A DNA stretch of 64,000 nt, taken from the NCBI GenBank assembly GCA_910574935.1, contig CAJTCU010000001.1, forward strand, positions 1 to 64,000, read 5' to 3'. Under the pieces are notes generated by a model. It had not been told where the DNA came from. It saw only the letters and a program-made list of their open reading frames with translations, and searched no databases. A program made the translations under genes and the position numbers. This DNA is from Oscillospiraceae bacterium. GTDB lineage: Bacteria; Bacillota; Clostridia; Oscillospirales; Acutalibacteraceae. Below are positions 1,281 through 54,479 of the stretch, in pieces. Position 1 is the first letter of the stretch, and each line of letters begins with the position of its first letter.

Positions 1281-1435
1281 TAGGGCTTGTTGGAAACACC
1301 GAAACCGCCGTCTTTTTGCCTATACACGGCCCCTTTCCGCGTCAAACATCCTCGCAAATCCGAAAAGCTGCCTTGCGGTTTTTCCTTGCAATAGACCCCT
1401 TCTGGGCAGTCTCTTCTATTTTCAAACAAGCCCTA
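1281..1435 (+). repeat. Dispersed inverted-terminal repeat, long subfamily, copy A1
   Basis: 155 bp, from TAGGGCTTGTTGGAAAC to TTTCAAACAAGCCCTA. The two ends are inverted repeats of each other. The interior matches copy E (52131-52296), including GCCTTGCGGTTTTTCCTTGC and CCCCTTCTGGGCA. Non-coding. Its final TA is shared with the first bases of copy A2. Confidence 0.85.
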
Positions 1436-1546
1436 GAGTCTGTTTTGAAATCGGAGAAACGCTGGCGCCTTTCCAGGATTTTTGATGCCGAAGCCACCAT
1501 TTTTGAGCAAAGCAGATCCTGTTTCGGAGTTTTTAAACAGACTCTA
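1434..1546 (-). repeat. Dispersed inverted-terminal repeat, short subfamily, copy A2
   Basis: 113 bp bounded by TAGAGTCTGTTTTGAAA and TTTAAACAGACTCTA. Its reverse complement aligns end to end, without gaps at equal length, with copy C (39140-39252) at roughly 80 percent identity. It abuts copy A1 through a shared TA. Its outer TAG (minus strand) is the stop codon of spoVAC. Confidence 0.88.
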
Positions 1547-1987
1547 GATTTGAAACACAAAAATAATGATTCCATACACCACGCTGGCCGTAATGCCAAA
1601 CACCAGCACCGGCCCCGCCACGGTAAAGAGCTTGGCCCCCAGGCCGGTGACAAAGCCCTCGCTCTTAAACTCCATTGCTGGAGAGACCATAGAATTGGCA
1701 AAGCCTGTAATAGGTACCAGCACCCCAGCCCCCGCGTGCTTGGCAATATTGTCGTACCATCCCAGGGCCGTCAGCGTGGCGGAAATGAGAATGAGGCTTA
1801 TGGAAACCGCCATGCGGGCCTGGGGCAGCTCCAGACCTAGATTTTGGTATAGATGGCATAAAAGCTGGCCCAAAGTACACACCGCCCCGCCAAAAACAAA
1901 GGCCAGGGCGCAGTCCTTGACCACTGGGGAAGAAGGGGAGGCATTTTTCACTCTTTGGGCGTATTCCTGCTGGGAAATGGTTTTCAT
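1544..1987 (-). CDS. spoVAC: Stage V sporulation protein AC
   Basis: 147-residue membrane protein matching SpoVAC: GGAVCTLGQ in the first membrane segment, then GAGVLVPITGFANSM and KSEGFVTGLGAKLF. SpoVA proteins form the channel that loads dipicolinic acid into the forespore and releases it at germination. The family is usually encoded with spoVAD and spoVAE; only spoVAC lies here, with nothing else of that locus on either side. An AAAGGAA ribosome site precedes the ATG. The stop codon TAG coincides with the terminal TAG of repeat copy A2, so the last residues or the stop may have been set by insertion of that element. Confidence 0.93.
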   Translation of the reverse strand: MKTISQQEYAQRVKNASPSSPVVKDCALAFVFGGAVCTLGQLLCHLYQNLGLELPQARMAVSISLILISATLTALGWYDNIAKHAGAGVLVPITGFANSMVSPAMEFKSEGFVTGLGAKLFTVAGPVLVFGITASVVYGIIIFVFQI

Positions 1988-2125
1988 GGGGAATTCCTTT
2001 CCTTTCCACTGAATGATCGTAACCTTATCATACGCCGCTTTGCCAGGTTTATGCTTTTCCTCTTATTTTTCTCTGATATTTTTAGGGCGGTCTTTTGCCC
2101 ACAATTTTTCCGGAGCCGGTTCAAC

Positions 2126-2166
2126 AAAAGACCAGGCTCCGGAGCGTCTCCAGAGCCTGGCTTTTT
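2126..2166. terminator. Bidirectional terminator after the LplA-type operon
   Basis: Stem CCAGGCTCCGGA / TCCAGAGCCTGG (2132-2160), flanked by T5 on the plus side and A4G on the other. It lies about 50 bases past the stop of the binding-protein gene and would end that leftward operon. Confidence 0.85.
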
Positions 2167-2211
2167 ATCTCTCTATATGTTTATTCCCCAAAAGAACATA
2201 TTGCCGCGGGC

Positions 2212-3846
2212 TTAGTTCAGCTGCTCCGCCATCCACGCGTTCAGCTTAGAAAGGCCCATGGTCTCGGCCTGCTGGTACAAAGTGTCCAGGGCTGCCTGGC
2301 ATTCCTCCTCGGTCTCGGCGAAAATGGCTTTGTTGACTTCAGAATAGCACATATCGTTCAAAGAGTTCCACAGGTTTTGCATGTCTCCCTCTGTGGGGAT
2401 GCACTTCTTCAGCTCGGACATCACCTTGGTGTGCTTCGACCCGTTGCGCAGGCGCTGGTAGTAGTCGATCTGGTCCGGGTCGGTAGCGGCCGCGTCCATA
2501 AAGGAGTTCTCATCGCCCTGGTCGCCGAAGATCCACACGCCTACGCCGAAATCATTCTGCCGGATCTTGCCGTTGGCCAGGCCGTCCCGGTAAGACTGGG
2601 TGGTCATTACGCCGCCGTCCTCGGTGTATTCCCAGTGTACGCCCTCAATGCCCCAAGAGCCCAGCTTGCGGCCCTCTTCGCCACGGGCCCAGGACATAAA
2701 CCGAATGGCACTCTCGGGATCCTTGCAGTTTTTGGTGATAAAGGTGCCCGCCCAGCCAATGCCGGTATTTACACTGACCAGGGCGTTGTCGCTCAGGTCG
2801 TGGGTCAGCAGCTTCCAGCGGTAGTCGGTGCCGGCTTCCTTGGCCGCCACGTTAGAGGTCATCGCCTCGTCGGCGCTTCGAATCTGAATAAAGGTCTTGC
2901 CGCTGTTACGCACTTCACAGTACTTATCATAGCCATAGGTCATGGACTCGGGGGTGATCAGCCCTTCCCGGTAGAACCGGTTGAGAAGCTTGTAGTAGTC
3001 CTGAATGCCCTCCATGTTCAGGTAGTGGCAGGGCTTGCCGTCCTTGTCATAGCCCAGGCTGCCGCTGCCGTTAAGGCCCATCTGCTCTGCGAAGTACCAC
3101 TGGTTGCCTTCCAGGGGCAGCAGGGGAATTACGTCTGGATACTTCTCTTTGCAGGCCAGCAGGGCTTTTTCCACATCCTCAATGGAATTGAATTCCGGGG
3201 AGCCAATGTCTTCCCAAATATCCAGGCGGTACGCCAGGCTGCGGGCTCCGCCAGAAATATAGGCTTCGCCTTTGTCAATGGATTCCTGGGATGTGTAGGC
3301 GTTCAATAGGGCGTAATAGTTGCCATCCGCCGCGGTGTTGGCCTTAATGACCGTCTCATTGGCATGAATGTCCACACCCGTGCGCTCTACCAACTCGTTG
3401 TAGCTATAGCATACGTCGGGGTCGCTAAGCATCGCCTGGCGGCCTCCGTTCTCTACATAGACCAGGTCTGGCAGGTCGTCGGAATTGATCATCAGGGCAA
3501 TCTCCTGGGGGTCGGTCTCCCGGGTCACGTTAAAGCTCATGTTGGTCAGCTCTGTAATCTTCTGAGAAACCTCGTCGGTGCCCCATTTGTCCAGCCAAAA
3601 CCAGGGAATGTCGATGAATAGGTCCAGGGTAACCGGCTCGTCAAACAGCTTGCCGCCCTCGTTGGCTTCCTTGGGGTCAGATTCCTCGCCGCTCCCCTCA
3701 TCCGCCTTGGAAGAAGGGGTGCTCTCCTCTTTGCTAGGGACAGAACTGCTGGGATCCGAGGAGCTTTTTCCGCTGTCGCTGCCGCAGGCTGCCAGGCAGC
3801 CCAGCATCATGGCCAGTGCCAAAAGCAAGCATATCAGTTTTTTCAT
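2212..3846 (-). CDS. LplA/YtcQ-type sugar-binding lipoprotein of an ABC importer
   Basis: 544 residues. A signal peptide ends in the lipobox LAAC with the lipidated cysteine at 21, followed by a Ser/Glu/Lys-rich tether to about residue 65 and a large periplasmic-binding-type domain. The size (over 500 residues) and sequence style (DLPDLVYVENGG, ANGKIRQNDFG) fit the LplA/YtcQ group, which captures oligosaccharides outside the membrane. It is the last gene of an operon with two permeases, 73 bases after the second. No ATPase is encoded, as is usual for this group, which shares an MsmX-like ATPase. The ligand cannot be read from sequence. Ribosome site AAAGGAC precedes the ATG. Confidence 0.92.
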   Translation of the reverse strand: MKKLICLLLALAMMLGCLAACGSDSGKSSSDPSSSVPSKEESTPSSKADEGSGEESDPKEANEGGKLFDEPVTLDLFIDIPWFWLDKWGTDEVSQKITELTNMSFNVTRETDPQEIALMINSDDLPDLVYVENGGRQAMLSDPDVCYSYNELVERTGVDIHANETVIKANTAADGNYYALLNAYTSQESIDKGEAYISGGARSLAYRLDIWEDIGSPEFNSIEDVEKALLACKEKYPDVIPLLPLEGNQWYFAEQMGLNGSGSLGYDKDGKPCHYLNMEGIQDYYKLLNRFYREGLITPESMTYGYDKYCEVRNSGKTFIQIRSADEAMTSNVAAKEAGTDYRWKLLTHDLSDNALVSVNTGIGWAGTFITKNCKDPESAIRFMSWARGEEGRKLGSWGIEGVHWEYTEDGGVMTTQSYRDGLANGKIRQNDFGVGVWIFGDQGDENSFMDAAATDPDQIDYYQRLRNGSKHTKVMSELKKCIPTEGDMQNLWNSLNDMCYSEVNKAIFAETEEECQAALDTLYQQAETMGLSKLNAWMAEQLN

Positions 3847-3919
3847 TTTAATTTCGTCCTTTCTCTTTACTTTTTAATTGTTATGTGAACCCGGCGCGCC
3901 GCCGGAAAACCACCTAAAT

Positions 3920-4885
3920 TTATCCCTTTACCGAGCCGATCATAACGCCCTTCACAAAGTACTTCTGCAAGAAGGGGTATACCGCCAAGATCGGCGCCAC
4001 GCCCAGCACCATGGCCGCCATTTGCAATGACGTAGTCGTGCTTTCCATCGCCGAGGCCGCGTAACCGGCCGACTGGGCGTTGTCCATGGCGGCGGCGGCG
4101 GAAAATTTGTTGACAATCTGCATCATCATATAGGCCATGGGCCGCAGCTCGTCCTTGGTAACGTAGTACACCGAGTCCATCCAGGAGTTCCACTGCCCCA
4201 CCGCGTAGAACAGCGCCACCGTGGCCAGGCTGGCCTTGGAGAGTGGCAGGGCGATTTGCAAAAACACCCGAATGTCTCCCGCGCCGTCCAGCCAGGCCGA
4301 TTCGTACAGAGACCGGGGGATTGACTGGAAGAAGTTGACCAAAATCAGCATATAATACACCCCCAGCATACCAGGGATCACGTAGACCCAGAAGGTATTG
4401 ATCAGCCCCAGGTTCTTAATGACCGCGTAGAAGGGGATAATGCCGCCCCCAAAGTACATGGTGAAAATATACGCCTTGTAATAAAAGCCCCGGAAAAGGA
4501 TATTTTCAAAGGACAGGGCATAGGCCACCGCACTGGTGACAAACACACCCAAGAAAGTGCCCACCACCGTGCGGGCCACCGAGACAAACAGGGCGCGGCC
4601 CCAGCTGGCGTCGGAAAGCAGGGTGATAAAATTGTCCAAGGTGGGCCGCCGGGGGTAAAAGTACATGCCTCCCAGGGTAGAATCCATGCCGTTATTAAAA
4701 GCCTGTATAATGACATAATAGAAAGGATAAACAGTCACCAGAATGACAAAGAGCATAACCAGGGTCACAATGGTATCCATCACCCAGTCCCCCCGGGTAC
4801 GCCGGTGCCGCCGGCGCTTGCCCAGGGTCCGCCCGGTATTCAAGACATTTTCAGAAGTACCAGAACTGACAGACAGATCAGACAT
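3920..4885 (-). CDS. LplC/YtcP-type sugar ABC permease
   Basis: 321 residues with six predicted membrane segments after an Arg-rich cytoplasmic start (RRRHRR). The EAA loop that docks the ATPase is visible as ESAWLDGAGDIRVFLQIALP near residue 197. The YFGGGIIPFY segment and the C-terminus FVKGVMIGSVKG are typical of the YtcP/LplC half of these importers. I place the start at the ATG 8 bases after GAGGAG rather than at the GTG two codons upstream. It follows the partner permease by 33 bases, so the two are surely co-transcribed. Confidence 0.9.
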   Translation of the reverse strand: MSDLSVSSGTSENVLNTGRTLGKRRRHRRTRGDWVMDTIVTLVMLFVILVTVYPFYYVIIQAFNNGMDSTLGGMYFYPRRPTLDNFITLLSDASWGRALFVSVARTVVGTFLGVFVTSAVAYALSFENILFRGFYYKAYIFTMYFGGGIIPFYAVIKNLGLINTFWVYVIPGMLGVYYMLILVNFFQSIPRSLYESAWLDGAGDIRVFLQIALPLSKASLATVALFYAVGQWNSWMDSVYYVTKDELRPMAYMMMQIVNKFSAAAAMDNAQSAGYAASAMESTTTSLQMAAMVLGVAPILAVYPFLQKYFVKGVMIGSVKG

Positions 4886-4918
4886 ACTCACAACTCCTCT
4901 CGTTGGGATTCATGGGAT

Positions 4919-5860
4919 TTAGTAGATAGAAGCGCCTGTTATCTTACGGCTCAGCGCGTTGGAAGAAAACACCAGTATGATAGAAATCACCGACTGCATC
5001 AGCCCCACCGCCGCGCCATAGTCGAACCGGAAGGAGGCCATGCCCACTTTTAACACATAGGAGTTGATGATCTCCGAATAGTCCCGGTTCAGGGTATTGC
5101 CCAGCATCATGGCCTGGTCCATATTGCCGTTTACCAGCCCCCCCAGAGACAGAATAAACATAATGATAATGGTGCCCTTGATACTGGGCAGGGTTACGTG
5201 CCAAATCCGCCGCAAGCGGCTGGCCCCGTCAATTTCCGCCGCTTCGTACAGGGTCGCGTCTATGCCCGATATGGCCGCTATGTAGATGATGGCATTCCAC
5301 CCCATCTCTTTCCACAGCTCCGTGCCCACGGCCAGGCCCCAGTACTGTTTGCCGTCAAACAGAATACTTAAGGGCTCGCTAATCCACCCGGCCTTTAGCA
5401 GCAGCTCGTTTACCACGCCGTTTACCGAGCTGAACATGGTAAAGCACAGGCCCGAGACGATCACCCAGGAAATAAAGTGCGGCAGATAGCTGCATGTCTG
5501 CACCACGCGCTTGAACTTGCTGGAGCGCACTTCGTTGAGCATAAGGGCAAAAAGGATGGGCGCCGGGAAACAAACCAGCAGCTTCAAAGCCGAGAGCACG
5601 ATGGTATTGCGGATATACATGCCGCTTAGGGGACTGGCGAAGAACTCGGCAAACCACTTAAAGCCCACCCACTCGCTGGTAAAGAAGCCCATCACCCCAG
5701 AGGTAAGCTTATACCTCTTAAAAGCGATGATAATGCCCACCATGGGGATGTAAGCAAAGATCAACAGATAGATCAACCCCAGAATCAAAATCATGTGCAG
5801 GGCCCACTGCCGCTGGAAGCGTATTCCTTTGCTGATAGAACTGGTTTCCCTTGCTTTCAT
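4919..5860 (-). CDS. LplB-type sugar ABC permease, first gene of the operon
   Basis: 313 residues, six membrane segments. The EAA loop reads YEAAEIDGASRLRRIWHVTLP-like at about 205-225. The conserved IPMVGIIIAFKRY near the start and FRFDYGAAVGLMQSVIS near the end are hallmarks of the LplB/YteP group. It pairs with the downstream permease to form the channel. Ribosome site GAGAGG lies 8 bases before the ATG. Its promoter region is shared back-to-back with the sensor kinase at 6282, an arrangement typical of substrate-induced control by the adjacent two-component system. Confidence 0.92.
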   Translation of the reverse strand: MKARETSSISKGIRFQRQWALHMILILGLIYLLIFAYIPMVGIIIAFKRYKLTSGVMGFFTSEWVGFKWFAEFFASPLSGMYIRNTIVLSALKLLVCFPAPILFALMLNEVRSSKFKRVVQTCSYLPHFISWVIVSGLCFTMFSSVNGVVNELLLKAGWISEPLSILFDGKQYWGLAVGTELWKEMGWNAIIYIAAISGIDATLYEAAEIDGASRLRRIWHVTLPSIKGTIIIMFILSLGGLVNGNMDQAMMLGNTLNRDYSEIINSYVLKVGMASFRFDYGAAVGLMQSVISIILVFSSNALSRKITGASIY

Positions 5861-5993
5861 ATTTTCTACCTCTCTTTCCGAATAGGATTCGGTTCACAGC
5901 CACGCCGCGCCCTGTCCTTTGTCTCCCGAACACTTCCGTCCGGCCTCCCCGGGACCAGCGGCGCTTTAGGCGTTCTTGCTTTCCTTTGCTGAT

Positions 5994-5999
5994 ATTATA
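5994..5999 (-). promoter_or_regulatory. -10 box of the LplB-type operon, weak -35
   Basis: TATAAT on the minus strand 134 bases before the permease start, with no good -35 hexamer at 16-18 bases. A strong -10 without a -35 fits a promoter that needs an activator, plausibly the AraC-type regulator encoded divergently. Between this site and 6160 I see no gene. Confidence 0.5.
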
Positions 6000-6160
6000 T
6001 TTCAAACTTACGAGAAAGAAAATGGCGATTTCCGTCAAGATTTATGACAAATATGGACAAGATATGAACTGGTTGTGAAATCAACTGGTTTATTGAACCA
6101 TCCGGCAGAAAAACAGATTCAGTTTTACAGAAAAAAATCGCAAATTTCTTTCACAATCCA

Positions 6161-6190
6161 TTGACAATGATTTTCTTATAATATTATAAT
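6161..6190 (+). promoter_or_regulatory. Promoter of the sensor kinase-regulator operon
   Basis: TTGACA (6161-6166), 18 bases, TATAAT (6185-6190). A second TATAAT at 6179-6184 is too close to serve. The implied leader is about 85 bases. Confidence 0.7.
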
Positions 6191-6281
6191 AAATAAAAGA
6201 AACCGCTCCACCAAATACGTCATCTGTGTGTAACTCACGGAAGCACGGAATGGCCCGGCCCCCTGAAAGGAGCCCCCTCCC

Positions 6282-7994
6282 ATGAAACTGGTCGAATATT
6301 TGCGCTCCCACCTTCTGTGGAAGATGCTCTTTTGGTTTGTGCTTCTCCTTTTGCTGCCCTGTCTTTTGCTAATGGGCGCCTATTTTGCCGTAAACAACTA
6401 CTATTTCGCCCAAGAGACCGCCGAGCTGGAGCGTTCCGCCCTAATACAATGCGCCAATTCCATTGAACAGGACCTGGAAACCTGCGCGGAGGTATTCCAG
6501 GTCATCCAGCGGCACAGCAGCTTTGTGCGCTTTCTAAACGGTAGATATACCACCCCCGCCCTTCAGCTGGCCGCTTATCACAGTGAATTTTTTAACATGT
6601 TTTCCTATGCGAAAAGCTTTTCTCCCTATATTGAGCATATACAGATCTATACCCTGCGTGACGGCCTGATCAGCATAGACAATAACGTATTGCCGGCTTC
6701 TCAGCTAGGGGAGTACGCCCTAGACCGCCATACCACCTATGGCTTTTGGCGCTACCAGCCAGAGGAGGACCGCTTTATCTACCGCAGGCTGTTGAGCAGC
6801 CTGTACGACTCTACCCCCGCAGGTGTGCTGGAGGTTATTTGCCGCCCCACCCTGGCCGGCCACAAGCTTTTGCGGTTTTCAGAATCTGTCTCCCGCCCGG
6901 TATATGCTGTTTACAAGGGAAAAGCCTACCAGGCGAAAGACGAGTCCCTGGTTCCTGCCCCTCTGCCGGCTGCTTCCCAGGAGAGCCTCTGCCTAGAGCT
7001 TACCGCCCTCTCCATAGAGCTGCGGGCCGATCAGCGCGTTCTCCAGCAGGAGGACCAGCACCCGGTAAATCTGCTCACGGTTACAGCCCTGGCAGGGGTG
7101 GGGGCGGTTATTGCCAGCAGCTGCCTTTTCTTCTTTTACATATTCCGGCTCTCCCGGCGCATTGTGCGGTTTTCACGGTACATTTCCATCTCTTTCACCC
7201 AGATTCCCGGGGCCTATACTGACCCCGGCCGGGACGAGCTGAGCCTGGTGGTGAAAAACTTTAACCAAATGCTGGAGCAGAACAGCGACCTAATCAACCA
7301 GATCAAGCTGGAAAAGCTGCTGCAAAACGAAATGGCCTACCGGGTGCTGCAAGCCCAGATTGACCCCCACTTTATCTATAACGCCCTGGAAAGCGTGCGC
7401 ATGATGGCCGAGCTCCACGACGAGCCGGAGATTGCCGACGTAATCTTCTCCTTCAGCAAACTGATGCGCTACAGCTTTTCGGCCAATACCGGCCCCGCTA
7501 CGCTGGAGTATGAGCTGGATATTGTCCGCCAATACCTGCGGGTGCAGAAGCTGCGCCTGGACGACCGGCTGCGGTATGACATCTTCTGCCCCCAGGAGCT
7601 GCTGGGCCTAAGCTGCCCCCAGTTTGTCTTGCAGCCCCTGGTGGAAAACGCCATCAAGTATGGCCGGGACCAGGCGCGCCCAGCCCTTTCCATCACTGTG
7701 CGGCTGAGCAGCGAAAACGGCCTGCTGACCGCCGCTGTGGAAAACGACGGCGCGCCCCTGGACCCGGAAAAGCAGGAAAAGATCAACCAGCGGCTCAAAG
7801 AAGGCCTGGACCTTTCCGGCCTGTCCTCAGGCACTGGGGTGGGGCTGGACAGTATTAACACCCGGATGCGGTACCTCTACCCAGAAAGCTTTTTTATGGA
7901 GCTTCTGCCCGGCCTAAACAACGGCGTGCGGGTGGTTATGACATGGAGACCCCAAAAGGAAGAAGGAGGACACAGTGAAAATTCTGGTAGTTGA
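6282..7994 (+). CDS. YesM-type sensor histidine kinase
   Basis: 570 residues: membrane segment 12-36, an extracellular sensing region to about 262, second membrane segment 263-288, HAMP-like linker, then the HisKA_7TM/His_kinase box QAQIDPHFIYNALESV with phosphoacceptor His363 and a C-terminal ATPase domain (N box LQPLVENAIKYG, G box GTGVGLDSINTR). The usual family motif is NPHFLYNTL; here it is DPHFIYNAL. Such kinases phosphorylate a YesN-type regulator in response to an extracytoplasmic sugar or a loaded binding protein. The gene overlaps the regulator by 20 bases and diverges from the LplB-type operon, so that transporter is the likely target. Confidence 0.93.
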   Translation: MKLVEYLRSHLLWKMLFWFVLLLLLPCLLLMGAYFAVNNYYFAQETAELERSALIQCANSIEQDLETCAEVFQVIQRHSSFVRFLNGRYTTPALQLAAYHSEFFNMFSYAKSFSPYIEHIQIYTLRDGLISIDNNVLPASQLGEYALDRHTTYGFWRYQPEEDRFIYRRLLSSLYDSTPAGVLEVICRPTLAGHKLLRFSESVSRPVYAVYKGKAYQAKDESLVPAPLPAASQESLCLELTALSIELRADQRVLQQEDQHPVNLLTVTALAGVGAVIASSCLFFFYIFRLSRRIVRFSRYISISFTQIPGAYTDPGRDELSLVVKNFNQMLEQNSDLINQIKLEKLLQNEMAYRVLQAQIDPHFIYNALESVRMMAELHDEPEIADVIFSFSKLMRYSFSANTGPATLEYELDIVRQYLRVQKLRLDDRLRYDIFCPQELLGLSCPQFVLQPLVENAIKYGRDQARPALSITVRLSSENGLLTAAVENDGAPLDPEKQEKINQRLKEGLDLSGLSSGTGVGLDSINTRMRYLYPESFFMELLPGLNNGVRVVMTWRPQKEEGGHSENSGS

Positions 7995-9252: not shown

Positions 9253-9255
9253 AAA

Positions 9256-9668: not shown

Positions 9669-9679
9669 CGGCGGGTATG

Positions 9680-24077: not shown

Positions 24078-24316
24078 GGGACGATTACGCCTTTCTATGT
24101 TTGAAATTTTGTAACCCATTATACCGCGTGTTTTCGGGAAAGTAAATAGAAATTTTGAAACAGTTTTTTACTTTTAGGTGATTGGTTTTTACTGTTTATC
24201 AAACCTTCTCTCCTGTATAGCAATACCGCACAAAGAAGCCAAAAAATCTCTTTGTGCGGCACTGTTGCAGCGGTGGCTCGGCTTTTTCTGTCCACGCCCC
24301 GCTTTTGAATCTGTTT

Positions 24317-24496
24317 AGACTGGGACTGGTTTTGAAACATCGAAAGCGCCGTCTTTTCGCCCATTCAGCGGCCATCTTCCCCGTGGGAAATTCTCGTCAA
24401 CCGCCAAGAGCAGCCGGCTACAGCGGCTCTTCTCCCGGAATAATGGCCGCTTTGGGTCAGCATTTCGCCATTTCTTCTGTTTTCCAAACAAGCCCA
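24317..24496 (+). repeat. Dispersed inverted-terminal repeat, degenerate copy B
   Basis: About 180 bp. The right end (TTTTCCAAACAAGCCCA) is close to the family, the left (GACTGGGACTGGTTTTGAAA) is diverged, and AAGCGCCGTCTTTTCGCCC matches the subterminal block of copy A1. It lies 42 bases past the permease stop. A separate 11-base stem (24226-24236 with 24249-24259, CCGCACAAAGA) lies beside it. Confidence 0.65.
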
Positions 24497-24537
24497 AAAT
24501 TTCGCAATAGAAGTTTTTACGCCAACCGTAAAAAAAC

Positions 24538-39139: not shown

Positions 39140-39252
39140 TAGAGTCTGTTTGAAAACTTCGAAACACGGTCTGTTTTGCCCAGAAACGGCGGCTTTGGCG
39201 TCAAAAATTCTCGAAAGGCGCCAGCATTTCTCCCATTTTAAAACAGACTCTA
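39140..39252 (+). repeat. Dispersed inverted-terminal repeat, short subfamily, copy C
   Basis: 113 bp, TAGAGTCTGTTTGAAAAC to TTTTAAAACAGACTCTA, same length as copy A2 and similar to it in opposite orientation. It lies between the divergent marR and regulator genes. Confidence 0.88.
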
Positions 39253-43443: not shown

Positions 43444-43520
43444 ACGGAAAAAAATTTTTTTGAAAATTTTGAATGGATTCCTCTTCCTCAATCGTATTCA
43501 TGATGAAGTCGGAAACGACT

Positions 43521-43685
43521 CGGCCTTGTTTGAAAATAGAGGAAATGCCGGATTTTTGCTTAAGACGAGACGGTTTCAAGGAGAAAACCGCCAGGAGCAC
43601 TTTTCTATTTCAAGAATTTTCGACACAGAAATCCGCCCGTATGGGGCATAAAGACGGTATTTCCGATTTTTCAAACAAGACCTAA
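43521..43685 (-). repeat. Dispersed inverted-terminal repeat, long subfamily, copy D
   Basis: About 165 bp; its reverse complement aligns along its length with copy F. Ends CCTTGTTTGAAAATAGAGG and TTTTTCAAACAAGACCTAA. It follows the HtrA-type gene by 80 bases and precedes the small secreted protein gene. Confidence 0.8.
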
Positions 43686-46640: not shown

Positions 46641-46664
46641 GATTGGCCCATGTAAACAATGCGG

Positions 46665-46700
46665 AAAGCGTCAGAGTCATGCGCTCTGGCGCTTTTGTGT
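46665..46700 (+). terminator. Terminator after leuB
   Basis: Twelve-base stem AAAGCGTCAGAG / CTCTGGCGCTTT followed by TTTTGTGTG-type sequence. Confidence 0.75.
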
Positions 46701-46766
46701 GGGTATAAATTTTTTCCAGCTTTTCAGCCGTTTCTCATCATTTTACCACTTTTATGGGGGTGCGCT

Positions 46767-48800
46767 ATGCCTTCTCTATTTGATACCGATGTCCGGCGGC
46801 TTAAAGGCGTGGGAGAACGCCGCGCCTCTCTTTTTGCCAAGCTGGGCGTAGAGACCCTGGGCGACCTGCTGCGCCTCTATCCCCATAGTTACCAGGAGTG
46901 GGCCCCGGTCCTCCCCCTTTCCCAGGCCCCGCCCGACGCGCCCTGCGTGGTCCGCGCCGAGATTACCCGCGCCCCCCAGGAGACCCGTATTCGCGGCGGC
47001 CGCCTGCTGTACCGCGCCACCGCCTTTGACGGGGAGAGCAGCTTTCAGCTCACCTTTTTCAACAACCGCTACATCCCCTCTCTGCTCCGGCTGGGCCAGA
47101 CCTACCTCTTCCGGGGCAAGGTGCTTCAGCGTCCCCTGTCCATGGTCTCGCCAGAGTTTCTTCCCCTGGACCGCGCCGCTGGGATTCTTCCCGTCTATCC
47201 CGCCACCCAGGGACTTACCAGCCGCAATATTTCCTCGGTCATGAAAAATGCCCTTGCCCTGTTACCCGAGGTTTTGGAGGACCCCCTGCCCGCCCCCCTG
47301 CGGGACCAATACAAGCTCTGCCACCTGGGGTTTGCCCTAGAGCGCGTCCACTTTCCCCGGGAGCACGCGGACCTGGAAATTGCCCGGCGGCGCTTGGTGT
47401 TCGAGGAATTCCTGGTGCTACAGCTGGGCCTAATGCAGATCAAAAGCGGCCGCCGCCAAGAAAACCCCCACCCCGCCAGCCCCGGCTACCCCGAGGACTT
47501 TGCCGCCCTGCTGCCCTTTCGGCTAACAGGCGCCCAGCAGCGGGCTATCTACCAGGGCGTCCAGGACATGGCTGGGTCCAGCCCCATGAACCGTCTGGTG
47601 CAGGGCGACGTGGGCAGCGGAAAAACCGCTGTGGCCGCCGCCCTGTGCTGGAAAGTGATACAAGCGGGCTGGCAGGCCGCCCTGATGGCGCCCACAGAGA
47701 TTTTGGCCGCCCAGCACTACCAGTCTCTCTCTGCCCTGCTGGAGCCCGCCGGGGTGCGCTGCGCTCTTTTTACCGGGGGAGGCTCCGCCCCTGTCCGCCG
47801 GGAACAGCGCCGGGCCCTGGCTGCGGGAGAGATTCAGCTAGCCATTGGCACCCATGCCCTTCTCAGCGGTCCGGTGGAATTCCGGGAGCTGGCCCTGGTC
47901 ATTATCGACGAACAGCACCGCTTTGGGGTGGAGCAGCGGATGGCCCTTACCCAAAAGGCAGCCAGCCCCCACCTGCTGGTAATGAGCGCTACGCCCATTC
48001 CCCGCACCCTGGCCCTAATGGCCTACGGCGACCTGGACATCTCTGTACTGGACGAGCTGCCCCCAGGACGGCAGAAAATTGAGACCTATCTGGTGGGTCC
48101 AGACAAGCGGGCCCGGGCCTTTCGGTATGTGCAGAAGCATCTGGACCAGGGGCGGCAGGGGTACCTGATCTGCCCCCTCATTGAAGAGGGGGACAGCGGT
48201 GTAATGAGCATTGAGGAATACGCCCATCTGGTGCGGGCAGCCTTTCCCCAAACAGCGGTGGGGGTGCTGCACGGCAAGCTGAAAGCCGCTGAAAAGGAGC
48301 GGGTGATGGAGGACTTCGCCGCGGGCAGACTACAGCTGCTGGTGGCCACCACGGTGGTGGAGGTGGGGGTGGATGTGCCCAACGCGGCCATTATGCTTAT
48401 TGAGAGCGCGGAGCGCTACGGCCTCTCTCAGCTGCACCAGCTGCGGGGGCGCATTGGCCGGGGTGAACATCCCTCCACCTGCATTCTCATCACCGGCAGC
48501 CAGAACCCGGACACCCTGGAGCGGCTGCGGCTCTTTAAAAGCACCAGCGATGGATTTGCCATAGCGGACGCGGACCTGAAGCTGCGGGGCCCTGGAGACT
48601 TCTTTGGCCAGCGCCAGCACGGCCTGCCCCAGCTGAAGATTGCCAATATGCAGATGGACTTAGACGTGCTGCGAGAGGCCCAGAAATGCGCCCGAAAGCT
48701 GTTTCATAGCGGAGCGATGGAACAAGAGGCCTACCAGGCCCTGGGCCAGGAGGTACGCCGTCTTTTTGCGAAAACCGGCGGAGACCGGGTGGCCCTATAG
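46767..48800 (+). CDS. recG: ATP-dependent DNA helicase RecG
   Basis: 677 residues after GGGGGTG. Wedge domain at the N-terminus (LKGVGERRASLFAKLGVETL), helicase core with Walker A GDVGSGKT, the DEQH box IIDEQHRFGVEQR, motif III MSATPIPRTLAL, and TRG motif region near the end (DGFAIADADLKLRGPGDFFG). Remodels stalled replication forks and Holliday junctions. The 36 extra codons upstream in the open frame are rejected. It lies between leuB and csp on its own. Confidence 0.95.
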   Translation: MPSLFDTDVRRLKGVGERRASLFAKLGVETLGDLLRLYPHSYQEWAPVLPLSQAPPDAPCVVRAEITRAPQETRIRGGRLLYRATAFDGESSFQLTFFNNRYIPSLLRLGQTYLFRGKVLQRPLSMVSPEFLPLDRAAGILPVYPATQGLTSRNISSVMKNALALLPEVLEDPLPAPLRDQYKLCHLGFALERVHFPREHADLEIARRRLVFEEFLVLQLGLMQIKSGRRQENPHPASPGYPEDFAALLPFRLTGAQQRAIYQGVQDMAGSSPMNRLVQGDVGSGKTAVAAALCWKVIQAGWQAALMAPTEILAAQHYQSLSALLEPAGVRCALFTGGGSAPVRREQRRALAAGEIQLAIGTHALLSGPVEFRELALVIIDEQHRFGVEQRMALTQKAASPHLLVMSATPIPRTLALMAYGDLDISVLDELPPGRQKIETYLVGPDKRARAFRYVQKHLDQGRQGYLICPLIEEGDSGVMSIEEYAHLVRAAFPQTAVGVLHGKLKAAEKERVMEDFAAGRLQLLVATTVVEVGVDVPNAAIMLIESAERYGLSQLHQLRGRIGRGEHPSTCILITGSQNPDTLERLRLFKSTSDGFAIADADLKLRGPGDFFGQRQHGLPQLKIANMQMDLDVLREAQKCARKLFHSGAMEQEAYQALGQEVRRLFAKTGGDRVAL

Positions 48801-48873
48801 CAAAACGAAGGGCCGCAAAAGAAAATTTCATTCTCAAGCGGCTCTCCCTTTTGCAAAAAATTGACAGTACCCC

Positions 48874-48902
48874 TTGACAAACCGCCCCGCTGGTGGTATA
48901 AT
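48874..48902 (+). promoter_or_regulatory. Consensus promoter of the cold-shock gene
   Basis: TTGACA (48874-48879), 17 bases, TATAAT (48897-48902), both perfect. Confidence 0.85.
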
Positions 48903-48908
48903 CTAACC

Positions 48909-49081
48909 GTATTCTGATAGCACGAAAATGTACTCACAGTTTCTGTAAGTCGTTGGGCGTCTGATGATTTACACAAGCTGTGAGTTCTCTTTAGTCAGGC
49001 AGCACCGTGCACGGGGCACCTGGGCCGGAAAAGTTTTTTCGGCCTGCTAGGCGGATACGAAAAATCTAGGGAGGTGCCGAT
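48909..49081 (+). ncRNA. Long 5' leader of the cold-shock gene, probable RNA thermosensor
   Basis: About 173 bases lie between the promoter and the ATG. A perfect hairpin GGCCGGAAAA/TTTTCGGCC sits at 49023-49044, and the stretch around 49000 (CACCGTGCACGGGGCACC) can pair with the GGGAGGTGC ribosome site region. Long, structured leaders of csp genes refold with temperature; that role here is inferred. Confidence 0.5.
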
Positions 49082-49291
49082 ATGAACGGTACAGTTAAGT
49101 GGTTCAATGCAGAGAAGGGCTATGGATTTATTTCCAACGACGAGGGCGGCGAGGACGTTTTCGTGCATTTCTCCGCCATCCAGTCCGAGGGCTTCAAGAC
49201 CCTGGAAGAGGGCCAGAAGGTGACCTTCGAGACCGAGCCCGACCCCAAGAACAGCGAGAAGCTGCGGGCTGTGAACGTGGTTAAGCTGTAA
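49082..49291 (+). CDS. Cold-shock protein (CspA family)
   Basis: 69 residues, the usual length. RNP1 is KGYGFI and RNP2 VFVHF; it starts [13 protein letters not shown]. Binds single-stranded RNA as a chaperone, cytoplasmic. Ribosome site GGGAGGTG. Own promoter, long leader and terminator make it a single-gene unit. Confidence 0.96.
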
Positions 49292-49306
49292 ATTTTTACG
49301 CCAAGC

Positions 49307-49356
49307 CAAAAAGGCGGCGCGCCGGGGCAGTCCCCTGGGCGTGCCGCTTTTTTGTT
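49307..49356 (+). terminator. Terminator after the cold-shock gene
   Basis: Long stem GGCGGCGCGCC / GGGCGTGCCGC followed by T6GT4. Confidence 0.85.
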
Positions 49357-49365
49357 TTGCCAATA

Positions 49366-49399
49366 AAAAAGCCCCCGGCTGTTTTTCGCGGCCGGGGGC
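49366..49399 (-). terminator. Terminator after the downstream NTR-like gene
   Basis: Minus strand GCCCCCGGC / GCCGGGGGC then T6. Almost identical in sequence to the hairpin at 50351-50380, which follows the paralogous gene. Confidence 0.85.
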
Positions 49400-49404
49400 A
49401 GGGT

Positions 49405-50253
49405 TTATTCTTCTACACGTTCAGGATACTGCTGTAGCTTTGCCAGTATTTCTTCGCTTTCCTCTTTCGTGATAAAGCCGCTTTCCAGGTTGGCCTTCAT
49501 GTTTTCGAGCATTTCTTCCCGCTCCCAGTTATAGTTTACCGGGTACTCCTGGTCCAACTCTTTTATTCTGTTGGAAAAGGTCTGCAAACTGCTCTTAGCT
49601 CCATCATTCTGAAAAACCGCCATGGCAGAACCATCCGCGCTGCTTTCTACCTCATACACGGCCTGGTCGTATACCACCAGCCAATAATATTCCTCTTCAG
49701 TCGCTAGCCCATACCCTGGCATAGGCCGGTAGAGGAACAGGACATATTCCTTTCCCAGTTCAAACGAGGGGCCACCTTCGCAAACAAACTCCATGTTTCC
49801 AACCTGCCCGCCTTCCTCGCTGACCACAACTTGGTCCTTTTCTTTGCCCCGGTAGGTTTCCTTCACATCAAAGGTGTAGTTGGTATAAATCGATCTTCCG
49901 CCGCTCTCCAGGTCTACCCAGGCGGCGGGCGAAACCTCCGTCAACACCCCTCTTACAACCAGGTGGGATTTTTCCAGCAGTTCTTCCGGCGAATGTTCCG
50001 CAATGCATTTGCTGACGAACCAGGTGATTGGTTCCTCTTCTGTTGCTCCGGCAGCGGGAGAACTGGATTCCGGCTCATCGGGCTCCTCTTCCGTCACCCC
50101 GGCAGCGGGAGAAACGGACTCCGGCTCATACGGCTCTTTTCCCTCACTGGCCCGCGCCCAGGCCGAAACGCCCATCCCGCAGGCTGTCAAAACCATCAGG
50201 CAGACAAGCGCCATCAAGCCAAACCGTTTTACGTTCTTTTTTACCGTCATCAT
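49405..50253 (-). CDS. Exported lipoprotein with NTR/TIMP-like domain, downstream paralogue
   Basis: 282 residues. Signal peptide with lipobox VLTAC (Cys25), an acidic linker containing two 17-residue repeats (EPESVSPAAGVTEEEPD and its copy), then a conserved domain (about 94-190): KSHLVVRGVLTEVSPAAW, YTNYTFDVKETYRGKEKDQV, GGPSFELGKEYVLFLYRP. The order of strands and the KSHLVVRG...FDVKETYRG...LGKEYVLFLY pattern resemble netrin/TIMP-like OB folds, an inference by eye. The C-terminal helical end (ENMKANLESGFITKEESEEIL) is nearly identical to the paralogue at 50386. Ribosome site GGAGG. Function unknown. Confidence 0.75.
   Translation of the reverse strand: MMTVKKNVKRFGLMALVCLMVLTACGMGVSAWARASEGKEPYEPESVSPAAGVTEEEPDEPESSSPAAGATEEEPITWFVSKCIAEHSPEELLEKSHLVVRGVLTEVSPAAWVDLESGGRSIYTNYTFDVKETYRGKEKDQVVVSEEGGQVGNMEFVCEGGPSFELGKEYVLFLYRPMPGYGLATEEEYYWLVVYDQAVYEVESSADGSAMAVFQNDGAKSSLQTFSNRIKELDQEYPVNYNWEREEMLENMKANLESGFITKEESEEILAKLQQYPERVEE
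50026..50127 (-). repeat. Two tandem 51-bp units inside the lipoprotein gene
   Basis: Encodes the 17-residue unit EPES(V/S)SPAAG(V/A)TEEEP twice. In frame, and absent from the paralogue, so it arose after the duplication. Confidence 0.8.
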
Positions 50254-50275
50254 GATCCCTCCAAATCATAATAAA

Positions 50276-50332
50276 TTATTTATATATATCTTTCAATACC
50301 TTTTGTTCCGTCGCAGTGACGGAACGCTTTTT
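50276..50332 (-). pseudogene. C-terminal stub of a second metzincin gene
   Basis: Minus-strand codons reading KKRSVTATEQKVLKDIYK then TAA, directly before the ribosome site of the lipoprotein gene. The intact protease upstream ends EKRSITLTEQKVLKDIYK then TAA; 14 of 18 residues agree and the position relative to the NTR-like gene is the same. This is a remnant of a duplicated protease gene, whose rest was lost. No start codon or upstream body remains. Confidence 0.8.
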
Positions 50333-50350
50333 CGTTTTGTTAATAAAGGC

Positions 50351-50380
50351 TCCCCCGGCCGTTTTTTCGCGGCCGGGGGC
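50351..50380 (-). terminator. Hairpin after the upstream NTR-like gene
   Basis: CCCCCGGCC / GGCCGGGGG stem followed on the minus strand by AGCCTTTATT. Weaker T tract than its twin at 49366, so some read-through to the downstream paralogue is likely. Confidence 0.7.
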
Positions 50381-50385
50381 ATGGC

Positions 50386-51186
50386 TTATTCTTCTACTAT
50401 TTTCGCGTACTGGTACAGCTCCGCCAGCATCTGCTCGCTCTCCTCTTTCGTGATAAAGCCGCTTTCCAGGTTGGCCTTCATGTTTTCCATCATTTCTTCG
50501 TACTCCCAGTTATAGTTTACCGGGTACTCCTGGTCCAGGGCCTCTATTTCCTGGGCAAGGGTCTGTAGGCTGGTCTTTTCGCCGCCGTCCTCGGCCACGG
50601 CCATCATGGTTCCGGCGGTTTCTTCTACGGCAAAGACACCCTGGTTGTATCCGACTAGCCAGTAATAATCATCATCTGTTACTAATCCATACCCTGGCAT
50701 AGGCCGATAGAGGTAAAGAACATATTCTTTGCCTAATTCAAATTCTGGACTACCGCAACAAACGGTTCTCCTGTTTCCTACCTGTCCTCCTTCTTGGCTC
50801 AACACCACTTCATCCTTCACTTCACCGCGGTAGGTCTCTTTCACACGAAACACATAATTCGTGTATATTGAATTTCCTCCGTTTTCTGTATCTACCCAAG
50901 CCGCAGGTGAAATTTCCGTTAATTCACCTTTAATGACAAGATGTGATTTTTTAATCATGTCCTCAGTGGAAAGCTCTTGGACCAAAAAATCTAATTCTGT
51001 TACTAAGACAGGTTTATCATTTGCTTCTATAGTTGCTGATTGACTAAATGCTTCCAAGTCCAGCCGTTCCGCATCGTCCGCACTAGCTTGTACTGACATT
51101 GAAAACCAAACCCCGCAAACTGCCAAAACAATGACACCAATCACAACCACAATTGCAAGTCGGTTTATACCTTTTTTACTGATCAT
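50386..51186 (-). CDS. Exported or membrane-anchored protein with NTR/TIMP-like domain, upstream paralogue
   Basis: 266 residues. An N-terminal hydrophobic segment (about 9-34) serves as signal peptide or anchor; LAVC is not a good lipobox, unlike the paralogue. The domain at about 78-175 repeats the same blocks: KSHLVIKGELTEISPAAW, YTNYVFRVKETYRGEVKDEV, SPEFELGKEYVLYLYRPMPG, and the C-terminus NYNWEYEEMMENMKANLESG. It begins 22 bases after the metzincin stop, so it is co-transcribed with that protease. Function unknown; a partner or inhibitor of the protease is proposed in the findings. Confidence 0.78.
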   Translation of the reverse strand: MISKKGINRLAIVVVIGVIVLAVCGVWFSMSVQASADDAERLDLEAFSQSATIEANDKPVLVTELDFLVQELSTEDMIKKSHLVIKGELTEISPAAWVDTENGGNSIYTNYVFRVKETYRGEVKDEVVLSQEGGQVGNRRTVCCGSPEFELGKEYVLYLYRPMPGYGLVTDDDYYWLVGYNQGVFAVEETAGTMMAVAEDGGEKTSLQTLAQEIEALDQEYPVNYNWEYEEMMENMKANLESGFITKEESEQMLAELYQYAKIVEE

Positions 51187-51208
51187 TACTATTCCTCCAA
51201 TCTATATT

Positions 51209-51817
51209 TTATTTATATATATCTTTCAAAACTTTCTGTTCCGTTAGCGTTATCGACCTTTTCTCTGTCCCGGTTGTGATTTGCGCACACATAACAGCCT
51301 GATTATAGGCAACGGGGTCCATATCATTAAAACCAAATATGTGTCCCGCCTCATGTAGGAAAACTGACCACACGTCAACATGGTCTTTTATTCCACTATT
51401 AGCAAATTTGTAGTATGTATTCATACATACATCTGCTTCGAACACAATATTCTTTTCAAAAGGCATACCATCTATAATATAATATACTCTCCGTGTCACA
51501 GCAACCTTGTCATCATATGAACCAAGATTCTGCCGATATATAAGGCTTTTCCCATCATTTTCACTTTCTGCTCTGATATGATAATTTGATAAACTGTGAC
51601 GCAATGTTGGCTCACGCTTTACTCCATGCACCCCACTAGGCAAATACTTGTTCCATTCATACAGTGCATTATTCATATGGGCAATGGTTGTAGCTCCAAA
51701 ATCTTTATGAGGGGTTAACATAAAATCATATGTACCTTTTATTCTCTTGCCACTCTTCCAGCTCTCATAAAGCGCCGAAGCATAGTTCGAAAACGTCCCA
51801 CAGGTAAACAAAGCCAC
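51209..51817 (-). CDS. Secreted metzincin-type zinc protease (start unclear)
   Basis: 202 residues as given from a GTG. Zinc motif HEAGHIFGFND (His155, Glu156, His159, Asp165: HExxHxxGxxD as in snapalysin-like metzincins) and a following Met-turn VMCAQ (Met176). The open frame continues upstream of the GTG with KKLLCATLAVALFTCG, clearly the core of a signal peptide, but no ATG, GTG or TTG precedes it in frame near the AAAGGAG at about 51890. So either translation begins at an unusual codon or the start has been lost by a small indel. AT-richer than its neighbours, which suggests acquisition. Probably first gene of the module. Confidence 0.75.
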   Translation of the reverse strand: MALFTCGTFSNYASALYESWKSGKRIKGTYDFMLTPHKDFGATTIAHMNNALYEWNKYLPSGVHGVKREPTLRHSLSNYHIRAESENDGKSLIYRQNLGSYDDKVAVTRRVYYIIDGMPFEKNIVFEADVCMNTYYKFANSGIKDHVDVWSVFLHEAGHIFGFNDMDPVAYNQAVMCAQITTGTEKRSITLTEQKVLKDIYK

Positions 51818-52130
51818 CGCTAAAGTAGCGCACAGCAGCTTTTTCCATCCTCGTGCTTTGACAAATTTTTTCTTCCTTGTATGGCTCTCCTTTCGTTTTC
51901 AAAACAGCCATGGCATTTTGCTTGATTCTATTATACAACCAAGCAATCAATTTGTCAATATAAACGGTTGTTTTTTTATGGGTCGCAAACCATTTTTTAT
52001 TTAGCGCTATCTTTGCCCCATAGCGACTGCAAAACTCTCCTACCATACTATTTTAATCAGCCTGGATCAGTTCCTGATCCCTTTCCCACCCGGGCCTCTT
52101 CCAGGCGTACCGCCTTTGGTCTTTTTGGGC

Positions 52131-52296
52131 TTAGGGCTTGTTTGAAATATCAAAAACGCTGTTTTTTGCCCAGAAAGGGCCCCCTTTCCGCATCAAAAAT
52201 CCCCGCCAATTGGAAGATTGCCTTGCGGTTTTTCCTTGCAATGGAGGCCCCTTCTGGGCAAAAATTCTCTTTTCCTCTATGTTCAGACAAGCCTTA
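52131..52296 (+). repeat. Dispersed inverted-terminal repeat, long subfamily, copy E
   Basis: 165 bp from TAGGGCTTGTTTGAAATATC to GTTCAGACAAGCCTTA. Subterminal arms TTTTTTGCCCAGAAAGGGCC and GGCCCCTTCTGGGCAAAAA are inverted repeats, so the whole element can fold into one hairpin. Its terminal TTA is the stop codon (TAA) of the Rrf2 gene on the minus strand. Confidence 0.88.
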
Positions 52297-52773
52297 GCTA
52301 CAGCCCGATTCCCCTTGATCTCCTCCACAAGCCCCATCCCGGCAGGTTCTTTCCTTTCCACATCGGCCGGCAGCCGCGGGCTCTTCCCCGCAGATTATGT
52401 CAAAAGTGTAGTTGTCCAGCTCCTGGCGGACGTCCTGCGAAACCTTCTCATAGATGCTGTGCAGGCGGCAGTGCTCCCGGCCGCAGCTGTACTCTTCCTT
52501 TTGGCAGCGGCTTAGCATATAGGGGCCCTCCACGCTTTCGATGACCTGCAGCAGGGTGATCTCCCCCGCGGGCCGGGCCAAACTGTAGCCCCCCTTTGCC
52601 CCTTTAAAAGAGCAGACCATGCCTGCCTGCACCAGGCCCCGCAAAATCTTCAGGCAAAACCGCATGGGCACCTGCATCCCCTCCGAAACGGTTTTGGCGT
52701 CCCAGCGGCCGGGGTTTTTCGTCAAATATTCTACGATGCGCACGGCGTAGTCCGCCTCTAACGTCATTACCAT
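52294..52773 (-). CDS. Rrf2-family regulator with cysteine cluster
   Basis: 159 residues from the ATG 7 bases after GGGAG; a longer frame of 47 codons upstream is rejected. Winged helix: TLEADYAVRIVEYLTKN, ILRGLVQAGMVCSFKGAKGGY. Cys90, Cys97 and Cys102 have nearly the spacing of the Fe-S ligands in IscR/NsrR-type proteins. The last 30 residues add four more cysteines in a Gly-rich tail (RCGKERTCRDGACGG) and the stop codon TAA comes from dispersed repeat copy E, so the tail may have been changed by that insertion. Likely an Fe-S or redox-sensing repressor; no isc or suf genes are near. Confidence 0.88.
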   Translation of the reverse strand: MVMTLEADYAVRIVEYLTKNPGRWDAKTVSEGMQVPMRFCLKILRGLVQAGMVCSFKGAKGGYSLARPAGEITLLQVIESVEGPYMLSRCQKEEYSCGREHCRLHSIYEKVSQDVRQELDNYTFDIICGEEPAAAGRCGKERTCRDGACGGDQGESGCS

Positions 52774-53051
52774 GTTACATCTCCCAGCTGCCCTTAAGGT
52801 CGCGAGACGCTGTCTCGCGCTCTGCAAGCTTTTGAAAAAGCTTGAGCAAAACTTTTTATTCGACTTTTTCCGATTCCGTATGGCAAAGCCCTGCCGCGAT
52901 GCCGTAAGCGACATAAAACTTCAACCCCTTCGGGAAAGGGCCTTTACAGGCCCCACGCGCCCAGCGGGGTGGGCGAAGCTTCGGCAGCACGCTGGTAGCC
53001 CGTTGCCCCACCTAAAAAATCCCCGCTACGGGCAGGGCGGCGCTTGGCTGG
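52774..53051. other. Hairpin-rich spacer between rpoD and the Rrf2 gene
   Basis: No gene. Several perfect short hairpins: GCGAGAC/GTCTCGC (about 52800), AAGCTTTT/AAAAGCTT (about 52828), GGGCCT/AGGCCC (52938-52953). On the minus strand CCCGTAGCGGGGATTTTTTAG just past rpoD is a weak terminator. Confidence 0.5.
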
Positions 53052-54146
53052 TCAGTCCAGAAAATCCTTCAGCTTCTTGCTGCGGCTGGGGTGGCGCAGC
53101 TTGCGCAGGGCCTTGGCCTCAATCTGCCGGATGCGCTCCCGGGTCACGTTGAACTCCTTGCCCACTTCTTCCAGGGTGCGGCTGCGGCCATCCTCCAGGC
53201 CAAAACGCAGGCGCAGTACCTTCTCCTCCCGGGGGGTCAGGGTGTCCAGCACGTTGCCCAGGGTCTCCTTCAGCAGGGTGTGGCTGGCCGCGTCCTGGGG
53301 GGCGGGGGCGTCCGCGTCCTCTATAAAGTCTCCCAGGTGGCTGTCCTCCTCCTCGCCAATGGGCGTCTCCATAGAGACCGGCTCCTGGGCCACCCGCATA
53401 ATCTCCCGCACCTTTTCCACGGGCATTTCCAGCTCTTCGGCCACTTCCTCGGCGCTGGGCTCCCGGCCGTTGACATGCAGCAGCTGGCTGTTGGCTTTTT
53501 TCACCTTGTTGATGGTCTCCACCATATGCACTGGAATGCGGATGGTCCGGGCCTGGTCCGCAATGGCCCGGGTAATCGCCTGACGGATCCACCAGGTGGC
53601 ATAGGTGGAAAACTTAAACCCCTTGGTATAGTCAAACTTTTCCACTGCCTTAATAAGCCCCAGGTTGCCCTCTTGAATCAAGTCCAAAAACTGCATGCCC
53701 CGGCCCAGATACCGCTTGGCAATACTCACCACCAGACGCAGGTTGGCCTCGGAAAGGCGCTTTTTGGCGGCAGAGTCCCCATTTGTAATGCGTACCGCCA
53801 GATCCACCTCTTCCTCTGGGGTCAGCAAGGGCACCCGACCAATCTCCTTCAGGTACACCTTCACGGGATCGTCAATGGCAATCCCTTCCGTGCCACCGCC
53901 GCCCTCCATCTCCGCCGCCTCACCGGCTTTCACCAGTTCCACGTCGTCCAGCTGCATTTCGTCAAAGTCCTCCACAATCTCCACCCCTTGGGTCTCCAGG
54001 GTGTCGTAGAACTTTTCTATGTGTTCAGGGTCAAAATCCAGCTCGCCCAAAGCGTCCAAAATTTCCTTTGTGCTTAGCTGGCCCTTGGCCTTGCCAATTT
54101 CCACCAAATCTTTAATCACTGTTTTTTTATCCGGCTGTGCGCTCAT
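53052..54146 (-). CDS. rpoD: Primary RNA polymerase sigma factor (SigA/RpoD)
   Basis: 364 residues. Region 1.2 [21 protein letters not shown]; region 2 [39 protein letters not shown] with [13 protein letters not shown]; region 3 [12 protein letters not shown]; region 4 [17 protein letters not shown] and [21 protein letters not shown], read in segments. Short region 1.1, as in other Clostridia. Directs housekeeping transcription. Part of the dgt-dnaG-rpoD block, though repeat copy F now lies between dnaG and rpoD. The second in-frame ATG is used as start. Confidence 0.96.
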
Positions 54147-54155
54147 TTTTATTAC

Positions 54156-54314
54156 CATTCCTTTCTATTTCCCTGTGCCGCGTTTTCTATTCCCCGGGTA
54201 AAATCCTTTATAAATTTTCTTTGGGCCTCCAGCGGTTCAAAGCTGGCCCTGCCAGCCCTTGGCGTCCCGTCGGCTAAGACCAGAAGGCCGCCCCGGTTTG
54301 TCCCCTTTTGCCTT
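54156..54314 (-). other. Open stretch upstream of rpoD, possibly a remnant ORF
   Basis: Between copy F and rpoD one minus-strand frame stays open for about 50 codons (…LLVLADGTPRAGRASFEPLE, AQRKFIKDFTRGIENAAQGN) and stops right at the rpoD start. It has no start codon; going upstream it meets a TAA formed by the end of copy F. It could be the tail of a small gene cut by the repeat, or chance. Confidence 0.25.
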
Positions 54315-54479
54315 TAGGGCTTGTTTGAAAAATCGCAAACACCGCCTTTTTGCCCTGTCCGGGCGGATTTGTGTGTGGAAAATCCTCGTAATACGAACAT
54401 ATTCCTTGCGGTTTTCTTCGTCAAACCGCGCCCGCCAGGGCAAAAATCCGGCGCTTTCTCTATTTTCAAACAAGCCCTA
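54315..54479 (+). repeat. Dispersed inverted-terminal repeat, long subfamily, copy F
   Basis: 165 bp, TAGGGCTTGTTTGAAAAATC to ATTTTCAAACAAGCCCTA, the best preserved ends in the window. Inner arms TTTTTGCCCTGTCCGGGCGG and CCGCGCCCGCCAGGGCAAAAA pair as well. Located within the dnaG-rpoD operon. Confidence 0.92.

Follow-up and report, generated by a model that had tools for sequence, protein, structure and literature searches.

MITEPsy1 of Pseudomonas syringae pv. phaseolicola, a miniature inverted-repeat transposable element (MITE), is described as a gene-less element of about 100 bp, present in six copies, with 18-nt terminal repeats like those of the IS5 family of insertion sequences (ISs), CTAG or YTAA as targets and a 4-bp duplication; its movement in vivo has been shown, and its partner is thought to be ISPsy2, of the IS5 family (PMC3189936). 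The MITEs of Porphyromonas gingivalis (MITE464/PgRS, BrickBuilt) are reported to have terminal repeats in common with IS5-family elements of their own host (PMC4596501), and MITECca01 of Cardinium is reported as recent, lineage-specific and mostly intergenic, its 169 copies amounting to 3.5% of the chromosome (PMC9769881). Here we describe a MITE family found in a stretch of 64,000 bp (the window; positions 1 to 64,000 of contig CAJTCU010000001.1, assembly GCA_910574935.1) from the draft genome of an Oscillospiraceae bacterium of the genus Acutalibacter. The repeats are short, have terminal inverted repeats, lack a transposase gene and are present in many copies, as is general for MITEs, and they constitute a new IS5-derived family of this well-known kind of element. 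Very probably they are moved in trans by an IS5-family transposase of the two-frame IS427 type and insert at YTAR with duplication of TA.

The family differs from MITEPsy1 in sequence and host, in duplicating TA in place of 4 bp, and in reaching about a hundred copies; from the P. gingivalis elements, described with 10-20 copies, internal tandem repeats and variable duplications (PMC4596501); and from MITECca01, whose partner, of the IS982 family, is reported to be intact (PMC9769881), whereas the partner seen here is damaged or absent. The copy number is high, not unprecedented, since Photorhabdus luminescens is reported to have 711 copies of ERIC, and Neisseria gonorrhoeae more than 120 copies of the Correia element (PMC10969869). 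A literature search, with most subscription papers outside its reach, rendered no paper that deals with MITEs in the genus.

A sequence-only reading of the window had listed seven copies in both orientations, and all seven are present in both orientations, with some coordinates adjusted slightly (Table 1). The consensus end (up to 3 mismatches) has 16 matches in the window, whereas 100 shuffled versions averaged 2.6 and never exceeded 9. A search of the whole 4.17-Mb genome found many further copies: ends like TAGRGYYTGTTTGAAA (up to 1 mismatch) occur 246 times (125 forward, 121 reverse), and the reversed pattern used as a control occurs once in the forward and never in the reverse direction. 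The family is thus large, as had been extrapolated from the window, but such an extrapolation overstates the number, since the window holds 9 of the 246 end matches and is about 2.4 times richer than the genome average. With a 165-bp copy as the query, 53 matching stretches were obtained, mostly over the full 165 bp and with 72-96% identity excluding the query itself, while a sequence model built from 37 copies rendered at least 99 matches, a lower bound given that 99 candidates were scored per genome.

The anatomy of the family was studied in 67 paired copies of 80-260 bp, a partial sample of the end matches drawn from the window, 30 loci and 40 further stretches on contigs C1-C13. Exactly 165 or 186 bp was the length of 38 of them (24 and 14, respectively); five measured 113 bp and the others lay in between. 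The 186-bp form carries an additional stretch near the middle, and the 113-bp form aligns with a 165-bp copy of the TAGAGTCT type minus the middle, being a shorter form of that type. Two end types exist, as had been proposed, but they do not define subfamilies by length: end type and length are separate matters, TAGAGTCT ends also bound 165-bp copies, and some copies (L023, L173 and L177) combine a TAGRGC-type end with a TAGAGTCT-type end. Median pairwise identity among 57 copies is 73%, and some identical copies are found at separate places (e.g., C1:450969, C11:47653, C11:57557 and C13:7672). The family is real and has moved.

The assignment to IS5 is based in part on complete transposons with matching ends, a search for which in relatives rendered IS5-family elements of 839-885 bp. 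Four full-length elements with similar ends come from the genus itself, namely L046 (851 bp), L047 (862 bp), L059 (839 bp) and L066 (873 bp), of which L046 and L066 have two long open frames whereas L047 and L059 are broken; L251 (867 bp) and L252 (885 bp), which have similar ends and both frames open, belong to other genera of the family. The frames of L251 match DUF4096 (104.6 bits) and DDE_Tnp_1 (63.7) of Pfam, and score 127.3 and 144.8 against the NCBIfam model NF033580 (IS5 family transposase, cut-off 110), above whose cut-off the frames of L252 also lie. The left end of L251 is identical over 22 bases to the consensus of the 37 MITE copies, and to the window copy at 54315 in 21 of the 22. 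Terminal repeats common to the MITEs and IS5-family elements were found in L251, L252, L046, L047 and L031, and three end subtypes, TAGGGC, TAGAGT and TAGGCC, run in parallel in the MITEs and the IS5 elements of the family, with MITEs of matching end subtype also in other genera (L255, 129 bp; L256, 166 bp; L259, 164 bp; L260, 158 bp). On account of its length, its two frames and the 2-bp duplications, the partner was assigned to the IS427 group (e.g., IS1248 and ISPpa2), described as complete transposons mostly of 832-865 bp with two overlapping frames and mostly 2-bp duplications (PMC3281130); L046, L251 and L252 resemble them, in contrast to the gene-less copies.

The window's genome has six DUF4096 matches. 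The only element in it with both ends is L031, of 1025 bp, with TAGAGTCTGTTTTAAA at both ends, i.e. those of the TAGAGTCT subfamily, and a frame scoring 107.3 against NF033580, just below the cut-off. A segment of about 178 bp inside this IS5 copy (L031:1319-1496) is found elsewhere at 93% identity (L219:900-1077) and may be another small mobile element. At C1:708689 a broken IS5 piece starts with TAGCCCTTGTTTGAAAAAT and adjoins a 113-bp copy. At C5:218570-219529 (L293:571-1530) the right half of a MITE is joined to an IS5 remnant, and this mosaic may reflect the way in which elements of this kind form or break down. Plasmids as carriers were considered and rejected: a search with an 867-bp IS as the query gave three records, none of which covered 80%.

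Regarding the target, the outer bases of the paired copies indicate YTAR, with Y before the left TA in 65/67 and R after the right TA in 63/67; the target motif of IS5 is described as YTAR (PMC10359306). The outer TA that had been assigned to every copy in the window is there in most of them, with one end lacking it in two (Table 1). Since the end pattern itself requires TA, counts of outer TA cannot prove a duplication, which is proven instead by empty sites that keep a single TA. Two were found in the sister genome G013 (95% identity over a 2.1-kb stretch), so that the search for empty TA sites in a relative was successful. Opposite the window copy at 52132-52296, G013 reads TTTTGGGCTTAGCTACAGCC / GGGCTTAGCTACAG, and opposite the compound at C1:688255-688712, made up of at least three elements, it reads GCTTTCTCTAAGCGATG / TTTCTCTAAGCGATG, with one TA in each case. 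The former fits a 2-bp and a 4-bp duplication alike; the latter, with CTAG on the left, CTAA on the right and CTAA as the target, establishes that the duplication is short. The C...G outer pair needed for a 4-bp YTAR duplication is present in only 24 of the 67 copies, and there are five pairs of neighbouring copies sharing one TA. Five sites could be compared with G013 (39140, 43520 and C1:680220 lie in regions uncovered in it), and the three others are occupied: 54315, where the G013 contig stops at the end of the copy and one flank is visible, C1:692801, and C1:677150, whose occupancy rests on BLAST pieces, exact-match anchoring being unsuccessful. An insertion of about 680 bp resembling a degraded transposase gene (L218:8070-8746, G000:C1:684069-684745) is also missing from G013. 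In the gap between dnaG and rpoD of named relatives, no end match (up to 2 mismatches) was found within 330 bp of dnaG among the 22 of 80 loci listed, which are too diverged for an exact empty site.

Long frames are avoided: once rejoined, the sites fall in an open frame of at least 150 codons in 20/64 copies, compared with 440/631 nearby YTAR sites (p = 2.6e-9). Targeting of stop codons was considered, since YTAR holds TAR and the element starts with G, and was rejected, there being no enrichment outside long frames (6/44 copies and 21/191 YTAR sites, p = 0.60); over all sites, the counts are 15/64 copies and 86/631 YTAR sites. In a single case, the 113-bp copy at 1434-1546, the final bases (1544-1546) are the TAG stop codon of a SpoVAC/SpoVAEB-like gene (1544-1987, minus strand).

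The sequence-only reading had attributed the copies to an IS630/Tc1-type transposase. TA duplication would fit Tc1/IS630, and the genome has six PF13358 (DDE_3) matches. The MITE-like character, the TA duplication, the two orientations, the many copies and the empty sites have all stood; the link to IS630/Tc1 has not, because it is the IS5 family to which the matching ends, the YTAR target and the transposase all belong. A possible IS630 fragment at the left edge of the window had been said to share no visible ends with the copies, and this was borne out: window positions 1-117 have 100% identity with the end of L037, a full copy of IS630 type (99% with L038), which has a DDE_3 match and ends reading TATTACTCC..., a reading made on L037 (the ends of L039 and L040 were not located). 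The comparison of L037 with the MITE ends gave 4-7/22 common bases in a register a few bases off and is to be read as showing no resemblance, and no end of the MITE type was found at the IS630-type loci L037-L042 except for one degenerate, chance-like match in L041. An IS630/Tc1-type origin would also leave the Y/R preference around TA and the matching IS5 ends unexplained, and is extremely unlikely.

The family is unevenly distributed among 29 genomes of the genus, 18 of which have some end match and 10 of which have at least 14 matches to the sequence model: G013 (100), the window's genome, G000 (at least 99), G009 (86), G001 (53), G011 (45), G016 (37), G006 (27), G007 and G019 (21 each) and G026 (14). 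Among 250 genomes of the family an end match was found in 102, although many also match the reversed control; seven have at least 8 end matches, including one of another genus, G174, with 58. In IMG/VR, three predicted viral contigs have copies: two hold two copies of 165 bp apiece, and the third has a copy with 97-99% identity to one in the window's genome. Copies in predicted viral contigs, which can include host DNA, were seen at L301, L302, L303, L309, L296 and L299, and these contigs are possible vehicles between strains.

Several observations weigh against mobilisation by an IS5-family transposase. No undamaged partner was seen in the genome's own draft assembly, where the eight second-frame matches are interrupted by stops or cover at most 69/158 residues and L031 has a 178-bp insert relative to L059; this bears on present activity, not on ancestry. 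Neither DUF4096 nor the second transposase frame gave a match in five of the ten copy-rich genomes (G011, G013, G016, G019 and G026, which are 87%, 63%, 99%, 84% and 86% complete, respectively). The exact 22-base end match, that of L251, lies in another genus of the family; the intact IS of this genus, L046, shares at most 18/22 bases with the copies tested; and the MITE body beyond the ends is related to no IS found. Finally, RNAalifold on 27 copies found the 10-pair terminal stem alone and no wider consensus RNA. It could be the case that the transposase moving the copies is of some other family, as yet unrecognised, with the same ends and target as IS5, as the copy-rich genomes with no IS5-type match would allow, one of them being G016, assembled in about 50 contigs; draft assemblies, however, often lose multi-copy ISs, and the parallel end subtypes of MITEs and IS5 elements argue against it, so that we consider this very improbable. 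In the preferred mechanism, an IS5-family transposase of the two-frame IS427 type would bind the terminal repeat, whose consensus is TAGGGCTTGTTTGAAA or TAGAGTCTGTTTKAAA, and insert the gene-less element at YTAR, the central TA being duplicated; that this enzyme does the moving is inferred. Since the transposase copies of the genome itself are damaged or partial, the source of the enzyme was probably present episodically.

The copies also have strong hairpins. With the ends trimmed, the interior pairs with itself better than all 20 shuffles in 57 of the 67 copies, the 113- and 114-bp copies being among those that do not, and individual copies fold at -35 to -73 kcal/mol (shuffle means, about -25 to -38). 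The 165-bp body forms a long, imperfect palindrome, in which the two arms vary in concert. In 13 diverged copies taken from the 24 of 165 bp (near duplicates and two TAGAGTCT-type copies, C1:545578 and C1:677150, were omitted), read on one mirror axis, 52 cells are changed on both sides, compared with 6-22 for slid partners and a shuffle mean of 20, and none of 500 shuffles reaches 52; pairs with both sides changed number 21 (5-14 slid; reached by 3/500 shuffles), and further pair types 42 (24-39 slid; reached by 11/500), while 33 of 78 pairs vary solely by pair loss. The axis was picked on the same data, and related rows inflate the shuffle test. A consensus RNA was rejected, its interior signal appearing only after manual placement of the mirror axis and a shift of one base. 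The window had no Rfam match at gathering thresholds, so that a known structured RNA family is not supported.

It might be argued from these hairpins and co-varying arms that the copies are now-immobile host repeats of the REP/ERIC kind, retained for a hairpin role in RNA or DNA whatever their origin, and their position mostly outside long frames, the three of five comparable sites in common with G013 and the several genomes without a partner transposase would agree with this. Immobile repeats would not be expected, however, to be identical at separate places, to be nested, to show two lineage-specific insertions at precise YTAR sites or to vary from none to about 100 copies among congeners, and a retained hairpin is at odds with a 113-bp interior no more palindromic than shuffles and with the absence of Rfam matches; this explanation is improbable. 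Covariation does not imply function, because template switching alone is reported to yield multibase compensatory changes (PMC8794818), and we think that arm-to-arm template switching in replication, which we propose here, is likelier than selection acting on an RNA or DNA fold. It is conceivable, though rather doubtful, that the 165-bp copies are self-maintaining quasi-palindromes, whose arms are kept complementary despite divergence by template switching or hairpin selection, and which spread in bursts when a passing IS5 transposase, perhaps phage-borne or from another genus, is available and then outlive it. In that event, what keeps the elements competent would be the form of the hairpin and not the sequence, and a compensatory change in repeats of this kind would be no sign of RNA function.

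Table 1. MITE copies and the IS630-type end in the window
Feature	Position	Strand	Length	Remarks
MITE copy	1281..1435	+	155 bp	TAGGGCTTG end type; next copy directly adjoining, TA at 1434-1435 common to both
MITE copy	1434..1546	-	113 bp	TAGAGTCTG end type
Degenerate MITE copy	about 24316..24497	+	about 181 bp	Right-hand TA missing; left boundary ill-defined
MITE copy	39140..39252	+	113 bp	TAGAGTCTG end type
MITE copy	43520..43684	-	165 bp	Left TA now TC
MITE copy	52132..52296	+	165 bp	Orthologous site in sister genome G013 empty
MITE copy	54315..54479	+	165 bp	Between dnaG (54503-56266, -) and sigma-70 gene (53052-54158, -)
IS630-type insertion sequence end, outside the MITE family	1..117	-		At contig edge

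A promoter and terminator scan of positions 51900-54700 gave one weak promoter-like and one terminator-like match within the copy at 54315, both unremarkable. Two other dispersed repeats were noticed: one of about 60-70 bp at 52794-52860 of the window, with matches of 83-95% identity scattered in several genomes of the genus, and one of about 108 bp, unrelated to the MITE family (L218:19401-19508, G000:C1:695400-695507), found at 79-92% identity in many places in G006, G013, G026 and G001.

A repeat family whose copies number up to about a hundred in a genus of gut clostridia now has a named transposon group, a target and a precise insertion footprint, so that annotators can mask it and date its insertions. 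The co-varying arms also serve as a warning: covariation by itself is no proof of a functional RNA. Moreover, close relatives with and without copies, and with and without the partner transposase, offer a suitable system for studying how MITEs persist after their transposase is gone.

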